A stretch of DNA of 64,000 nucleotides from Ehretia macrophylla (lineage: Eukaryota; Streptophyta; Magnoliopsida; Boraginales; Ehretiaceae), in the NCBI GenBank assembly GCA_037974665.1, contig CM075764.1, positions 83,041,825-83,105,824 of the forward strand, in the 5' to 3' direction. This document shows, piece after piece, positions 33,297-33,388 of the stretch. Made by a program: the position numbers and the translations under genes. Below the pieces are notes generated by a model. That model was not told where the DNA came from. It saw only the letters and a list, made by a program, of their open reading frames with translations, and searched no databases. Within the stretch, counting starts at the first letter, position 1. Every line of letters starts with the position of its first letter.

Positions 33297-33388
33297 GTGT
33301 TGCAGAGCCGGATTACGGGTACGTGCCTCCTGAGGAGGAAAATGTGCCTTACGTGGACGAGTCATATGTTCCCGAGTCTTATCCATGA
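33297..33388 (+). CDS. candidate conserved LTR exon 2 (copy 2, 5' LTR)
   Basis: It is 92 bases long, 2 bases plus 30 codons including TGA: VAEPDYGYVPPEEENVPYVD, then ESYVPESYP. Compared with the exon in element Y (53543-53634), 21 of 29 residues are identical and 12 of those 21 codons differ only at synonymous third positions. That points to selection on the peptide. The candidate upstream exon carries TAG and TAA in the joining phase in this element, so its partner coding part may be lost. The frame also happens to stay open upstream to 33179 in this copy, but that extension is not shared by the others. Confidence 0.5.

Follow-up and report, generated by a model that had tools for sequence, protein, structure and literature searches.

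The window (the whole stretch of 64,000 nucleotides from Ehretia macrophylla analysed here) contains a young LTR element, designated C, whose 5′ LTR (31364..33786, forward strand) and 3′ LTR (38807..41227, forward strand), both delimited by self-BLAST, are 99.6% identical. Its PBS, TGGTATCAGAGC at 33794-33805, is one that we take to be of the tRNA-Met type, and its Gag frame, followed up to the splice donor proposed below (34310..35387, forward strand), gave Pfam matches to Retrotrans_gag, Ty3_capsid and a CCHC zinc knuckle. Pfam found gag, rve and SH3_Tf2-1 in pieces of C, and gag, RVP_2, RT_RNaseH and the integrase zinc domain in pieces of a second element, B. In these pieces of B and C, the Ty3/gypsy Gag, protease, RT/RNase H and integrase lie in one reading frame. 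The two long ORFs of C share that frame with a single stop between them, and this in-frame stop (37670-37676) splits the pol frame of the young element. A Chromo domain was not reported at E 0.001, SH3_Tf2-1 and rve being found, and a chromodomain-like stretch ending in ATWERR was recognized by eye only. The explanation that we consider best places the elements in a chromovirus-like lineage of Ty3/gypsy, presumably Tekay/Del, a name given from element structure.

Elsewhere in the window, the order between 16990 and 29172 is LTR, internal region, LTR fragment, element and internal region, which suggests unequal recombination. Within a Copia element at 598-5050 there is a family-G stretch that resembles an LTR (about 2755-5050), and no PBS was found nearby. 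Searches beyond the window covered a genome of 1.58 Gb in 20 contigs.

An acidic frame in the LTRs and its coding constraint

A sequence-only reading of the window had described a short acidic frame that follows an acceptor-like YTTNCAG/G (the slash marks the putative splice border) in the LTRs. We found this frame after YAG/G in all ten intervals named; it always starts at the third exon base, and its last codon before the stop is Pro. Its exact length of 92 bases, claimed for seven or more copies, holds for eight of the ten, the shorter ones measuring 65 bases (4534) and 74 bases (30596). Seven copies are intact, while those at 18894, 20742 and 59010 each have one in-frame internal stop. In element C the frame is present in both LTRs: the 5′ copy (33297..33388, forward strand) could not receive the splice because the proposed donor lies downstream of it, and the 3′ copy (40738..40829, forward strand), which reads VAEPDYGYVPPEEENVPYVDESYVPESYP-stop, would be the terminal exon of our model, as judged from its frame, the joined product and the coding constraint. 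Element B has an intact exon in its 3′ LTR (28201..28292, forward strand; LTR limits from self-BLAST), which would be terminal in the same way, and a 5′-LTR counterpart with an internal stop (20742..20833, forward strand). The copy at 18894..18985 (forward strand) lies in another LTR (16990-19396). The remaining ones are a G-family copy, VVEADPIEVVEEDEQVEVFP-stop (4534..4598, forward strand), in the LTR-like stretch inside the Copia element; an H-family copy, GAEVDPQLLAVQGKEEVQLEQLP-stop (30596..30669, reverse strand); an intact E-family copy (50117..50208, reverse strand); and two F copies, one intact (53543..53634, reverse strand) and one with the internal stop (59010..59101, reverse strand).

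The LTR families that carry the frame are C-type (VAEPDYGYVPPEEENVPYVDESYVPESYP), F, G (VVEADPIEVIEEEEQVEVFP), H (GAEVDPQLLAVEGEEEVQLEQLP), K (DAEGDPQLVDLVEEEEVQIEPLP) and M (EAEPEPGTQAEGETYLCDESDFCLL). Intact tails have a net charge of -4 to -9 and end in Pro-stop, but in Leu-stop in M. For the pol-less families L040, L044 and L039, neither a strict motif nor a looser scan found the exon in L116-L118. The strict motif found none in L100, L101, L102, L112 and L119, among which the looser scan recovered one intact tail, in L101. A G-type exon in L104 belongs to another element, and the exon of L106 is broken.

The acidic LTR frame evolves as coding sequence. We compared six C-type, four K/H and three G copies, all intact and of equal length within their group, so that the absence of indels from the exon is partly by choice. 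Left out were A, A20 and F2 (internal stops), L109 (a 3-base insertion), L110, L114 and L115 (near-duplicates), G70 (offset by one base) and M71 and M72 (other length). The pN/pS ratio was below 1 in 24 of 24 pairs tested, with values of 0.11-0.55 in the C-type group (15/15 pairs), 0.37-0.81 in K/H (6/6) and 0.05-0.27 in G (3/3). Variable columns numbered 13, 21 and 41 of 75 at codon positions 1, 2 and 3, respectively, a third-position excess over the expected one third with a one-sided binomial p of 0.00012 when columns are treated as independent (p = 0.007 for C-type, 0.079 for K/H and 0.008 for G). None of the 13 intact copies has an internal stop in the exon frame, whereas 7 and 13 of them have one in the two alternative frames, and since these copies were picked as intact, only the contrast between frames is informative. 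Within the window, the copies at 33297 (C) and 53543 match at 21 of 29 residues, 12 of them by different codons, exactly as had been described. The suggestion drawn from that comparison, that a peptide within the LTR is under selection, is supported in three family groups, and the dN/dS near 1 that would speak against it does not occur in the copies examined.

Mean pairwise difference in the exon was 0.208 for C-type, 0.207 for K/H and 0.097 for G copies. The 120-base flanks differ by 0.12-0.41, with 1-23% gaps, and exceed the exon in five of six comparisons, the sole exception being the C-type upstream flank, which includes the hairpin and acceptor discussed below (0.185, with 23% gaps, versus 0.208).

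Contrary to the sequence-only reading, the frame is not found in every gypsy LTR type. In family D, whose LTRs at 42241-44709 and 47499-49967 are 98.4% identical, the exon is one base shorter and the frame is shifted at the acceptor in all 21 parsed copies (22 were examined; L137 could not be parsed), and no gag or pol match was obtained by tblastn with pieces of C. Although most young elements among the copies examined keep phase and stop, the frame is lost throughout this gag-less family. The loss fits a loss of need, but the contrast is not proof, because the copies share one event and because the frame reopens after the missing base and can be read, in phase, from an AG 14 bases further on. 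Element D (42241-49967) shares the LTR hairpin and the PPT hairpin with the autonomous families.

Candidate splice sites and a predicted Gag-only messenger

Upstream of the exon, the frame is closed by a stop at a distance of 13-106 bases in 22 of 23 copies; the exception is C, with none within the 120 bases read. Between that stop and the exon, no in-frame ATG occurs in B, in F, in the copies of G, H and M or in four of the five K copies. At least in those families, the exon frame must therefore come via splicing, as the acceptor reading had supposed, and since the frame always starts at the third exon base, the donor must leave one codon base. One candidate for a first exon, the MAFGAT... 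stretch upstream in the U3 of C-type LTRs, was rejected: its ATG is lost in E and, by eye, there is none in G and H.

Splice sites were scored with approximate plant weights. On this scale the acceptor AG of C, in TGCTTATAG/GTG (40736..40737, forward strand), ranks first of the 118 AG sites in the 5′ LTR, where the sequence is the same. In the LTR stretches of other families, the acceptor ranks 1/136 in G, 2/82 in H and 2/100 in M, and lower in B (3/128), F (6/145) and K (6/180). Just upstream is a hairpin, TGGGCTTATGTATATAAGCTCA (40692..40713, forward strand, and again at 33251-33272 in the 5′ LTR), which folds alone. Its form, TGRGCnn...nnGCTCA, directly precedes the acceptor in copies of every family examined and is absent from the F copy at 53543. 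By eye, the inner pairs are TT/AA in C and F, AA/TT in G, H and K, and TA/TA in M, the stem being kept through paired changes in G, H, K and M; 18 of 19 segments fold alone at -7.4 to -10.9 kcal/mol (the 19th was mis-cut). The hairpin could act as a splicing brake or be linked to transcription, the latter because its 3′ arm holds TATATAAG in C-type LTRs, and also in F2. This stretch lies at 33261-33268, about 35 bases before the acceptor, and if it is a promoter, R would start near the exon.

The best candidate partner for the LTR exon, on present sequence evidence, is a donor at the border between Gag and protease. In C it reads GTGGAAG/GTAACTTCC (35388..35396, forward strand; VVEG/NFLIL), is in phase 1 and ranks first of the 359 GT sites of the internal region. 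The same donor, again with VVEG/NFLIL, ranks first of 351 in B (22831..22839, forward strand) and first of 302 in a 5.3-kb fragment of K. Homologous places in further copies were located from the positions implied by genome pattern matches at the end of pol. We found GAA-GGT at the donor, at the Gag/protease border as in shGAG-type expression, in 19 of the 21 copies read, from five families (C-type, G, K, L093 and M); L029 and L140 have GAT in place of the required GGT, L140 being the single copy read from H. The donor went unread in L075, L076, L084, L085, L092 and L094 (no protease match), in L048 (site outside the match) and in L141 (no match). It is also unreadable in element F (55300-58590), because this element retains little gag: most of it is lost and 47 residues align. 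The fixed GAA-GGT goes beyond codon habit, since among nearby codons of the 19 copies, with L029 and L140 left out, Gly is GGT in 90 of 179 and Glu is GAA in 30 of 121, although these counts are non-independent, the 19 copies representing five families and thus few independent cases. In family M the GTG is a weak donor (score 1.5), and L098 combines such a donor with a stop in the tail.

Donor and intact tail occur on one strand, 5202-5370 bases apart, in eight elements (C, B, L074/L069, L089/L110, L090/L108, L091/L109, L096/L103 and L083/L114), while the G element L081 keeps the donor and has lost the acceptor AG in its LTR copy L113. As the donor ends in G and the second exon begins with GT or GA, the junction codon is Gly in every family with the donor read intact. 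When 34310-35387 is joined to the exon in C, the product has 389 residues, comprising a capsid-type Gag, a zinc knuckle, YAVDMEEMPEETAVVEG and the acidic tail; Pfam on 34310-35387 confirms the capsid and zinc knuckle, and the protease active site is absent. In C the donor lies 14 codons ahead of the protease DSGATHSF (Asp-Ser-Gly), and the predicted spliced RNA would therefore be Gag-only. We consider, with a probability of roughly 0.7, that the LTR frame represents the final coding exon in such a spliced Gag-only mRNA of this Ty3/gypsy chromovirus-like lineage. Given where its best candidate donor lies, the acidic frame probably forms the tail of Gag rather than a free-standing protein or separate peptide.

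In this model, a transcript would start in the 5′ LTR, cross the element and reach the 3′ LTR. Left unspliced, it would encode Gag-Pol and could act as the genomic RNA. Some of the transcripts would instead have the VVEG/GT donor joined to the acceptor of the 3′ LTR, so that pol, PPT and U3 are removed as a single intron of about 5.2-5.4 kb. In C, this putative intron, delimited by the proposed donor and acceptor, would span 5350 bases (35388..40737, forward strand) and take in protease, RT, RNase H, integrase, PPT and the U3 of the 3′ LTR. The spliced RNA would encode the capsid and zinc knuckle, the junction Gly and an acidic tail that is 20-29 residues long and in most cases finishes with Pro-stop. 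With its stop codon in the last exon it should escape nonsense-mediated decay, and the conserved hairpin before the acceptor may keep splicing at partial efficiency. Gag would thereby be made in excess over Pol without frameshifting. What the sequences show directly is the coding constraint, the hairpin, and the donor and acceptor sequences with their phases; from these we infer the splicing itself, its efficiency, the resulting ratio of Gag to Pol and a function of the tail.

DNA copies of the Gag junction did not stand out in the genome: a degenerate pattern gave 4 matches versus 5 in a reversed control, and the C-type junction, searched in C-type letters only, gave none with up to 3 mismatches. 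With a long junction query, the best 40 matches were all one-sided (40/40), swamped by LTR copies. Retrocopies of the spliced RNA need not exist. At the protein level, residues 340-389 of the joined product gave nothing at E 0.1 in a large protein database. The whole product matched seven proteins resembling Gag, and six of these come from named plant records; by eye, none of the seven contains the acidic tail end. VVEG stands at the corresponding place in P0001-P0004. The Henckelia pumila gene model P0003 passes directly from VVEG to MDWL, residues situated further along the protease in C. It looks as though gene prediction had here taken the same VVEG position for a donor.

Other readings of the exon

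A second donor-like sequence, GTAAGAATT (38766..38774, forward strand), at the end of pol, raises the question of whether both donors could be used with one acceptor, yielding the genome, a Gag mRNA and a Gag-Pol mRNA that lacks PPT and U3. Both sites are present in C, K and G, and a single acceptor exon would serve both, but the end-of-pol site yields the tail in only some families. We regard this wider scheme as possible though rather doubtful; it includes the Gag-only messenger favoured above, and its odds are not additional to those of that reading.

That the end-of-pol donor is the only partner seems unlikely. The exon would then be a C-terminal extension of Gag-Pol, spliced from GTAAG with removal of PPT and U3 only, and the resulting messenger would be barred from replication. 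As judged by inspection, GTAAG does stand at the end of pol in most of the matches listed among 6644 pattern places. Its phase suits the exon in C and B, and likewise in F, where it reads GTAAT. It keeps a constant place though the families read different frames, so that its nucleotides themselves look constrained. Its phase varies, however: the junction in K gives TGA, the exon in G starts GAG TAG and the join in M reads AGG TGA, so a join from the end of pol gives no tail translation in K, G and M, yet K/H and G both conserve the frame of the tail. Nor did a genome search for the end-of-pol junction in C-type letters only, with up to 3 mismatches, find any match. The pol end at 38762-38806 and its homologues contain GTAAG, a hairpin AATTTCG-AGGA-CGAAATT (AATTGCG-NGGA-CGCAATT in other families) and the PPT. 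An AATTNCG-type hairpin-PPT pattern occurs 5501 times in the genome; of 30 loci cut out, 28 were without a pol end by eye and 3 had GTAAG before the hairpin.

It is highly improbable that the frame is simply a short unspliced ORF, a leader peptide or small protein read from an AUG just upstream. An in-frame ATG does lie 10 bases upstream in the window copies A, A20, C and E and in the genome copies L103 and L105, at -82 in F2 and at -64 in the K copy L108, but there is none in B, in F, in the copies of G, H and M or in the remaining four of K, and every copy but C has the upstream in-frame stop noted above. Equally improbable, and already disfavoured, is conservation of the stretch as RNA or DNA (a promoter, polyadenylation or packaging signal) with an incidental frame, which could draw on TATATAAG, the conserved hairpin and the slightly lower divergence of the C-type upstream flank, but which sits badly with changes concentrated at third codon positions and with quite different nucleotides across families that nevertheless keep the acidic frame and its Pro-stop (Leu-stop in M).

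Related systems and meaning for plant Ty3/gypsy elements

Gag-only spliced RNAs are established in Ty1/copia, notably the shGAG of EVADE/ATCOPIA93 and those of other Arabidopsis elements (PMC8892269, PMC12786077). The spliced Gag-only messenger proposed here would resemble shGAG in deriving from one transcript unit and in providing an excess of Gag over Pol. The EVADE intron removes the protease, a stop follows soon after the junction and the RNA undergoes premature cleavage and polyadenylation (PMC8892269, PMC12786077). Unlike EVADE/ATCOPIA93, the present elements are Ty3/gypsy, the proposed intron extends to the 3′ LTR, the terminal exon would code for a conserved tail and the end of the RNA is placed in the 3′ LTR. 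In barley BARE1, the donor CAG/GTAT is likewise near the protease, at the start of its domain, but the intron described has 104 bases and a stop follows three residues after Gag, with no LTR exon (PMC3735527). The parasitic BARE2, which lacks the splice signals, is comparable to family D with its lost frame, the BARE1/BARE2 pair showing the same pattern in a case where splicing has been demonstrated (PMC3735527). The sunflower elements Tyran and Varan have spliced short isoforms that encode part of Gag; however, both are Ty1/copia, the isoforms end prematurely without a capsid domain, and Tekay is absent from the expressed set (PMC7730604).

Another related case is Cer1 CERV of C. elegans, a Gypsy/Ty3-related element in which a spliced RNA joins gag exons to a far 3′ exon via TTTCAG, although there with five exons (PMC10309623). 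Among plant Ty3/gypsy elements, Ogre has a transcript that is partially spliced (PMC6317226), and apart from Ogre and EVADE, LTR elements of plants are stated to be generally free of introns (PMC12786077). Our searches of the open-access literature turned up neither a plant LTR described as containing a coding exon nor a plant chromovirus described as splicing a Gag-only RNA. What would be new here is splicing of a known, Gag-only kind in another superfamily, its terminal exon having shifted to the LTR and its acidic tail being conserved. For an LTR that contains coding sequence there is a counterpart in MMTV Sag, which is a whole protein coded in the LTR of an animal retrovirus.

The fullest form of our reading, which we put forward tentatively and would not expect to hold in every part, is that of a lineage of thousands of copies with a C-terminal Gag exon in the LTR that is active only in the 3′ copy. 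Pol and U3 would form a regulated intron, two donors and one acceptor would give the genome, a Gag mRNA and a Gag-Pol mRNA, and the covarying hairpin would set the balance between them.

Many plant Ty3/gypsy elements have Gag and Pol in one frame, and to our knowledge it is not settled how they obtain more Gag than Pol. The spliced Gag-only messenger would provide a concrete answer at the sequence level. Part of an LTR, a region usually treated as non-coding, is under protein selection, and therefore the annotation of LTRs, their use in dating and the classification of transposable elements would need to allow for it.
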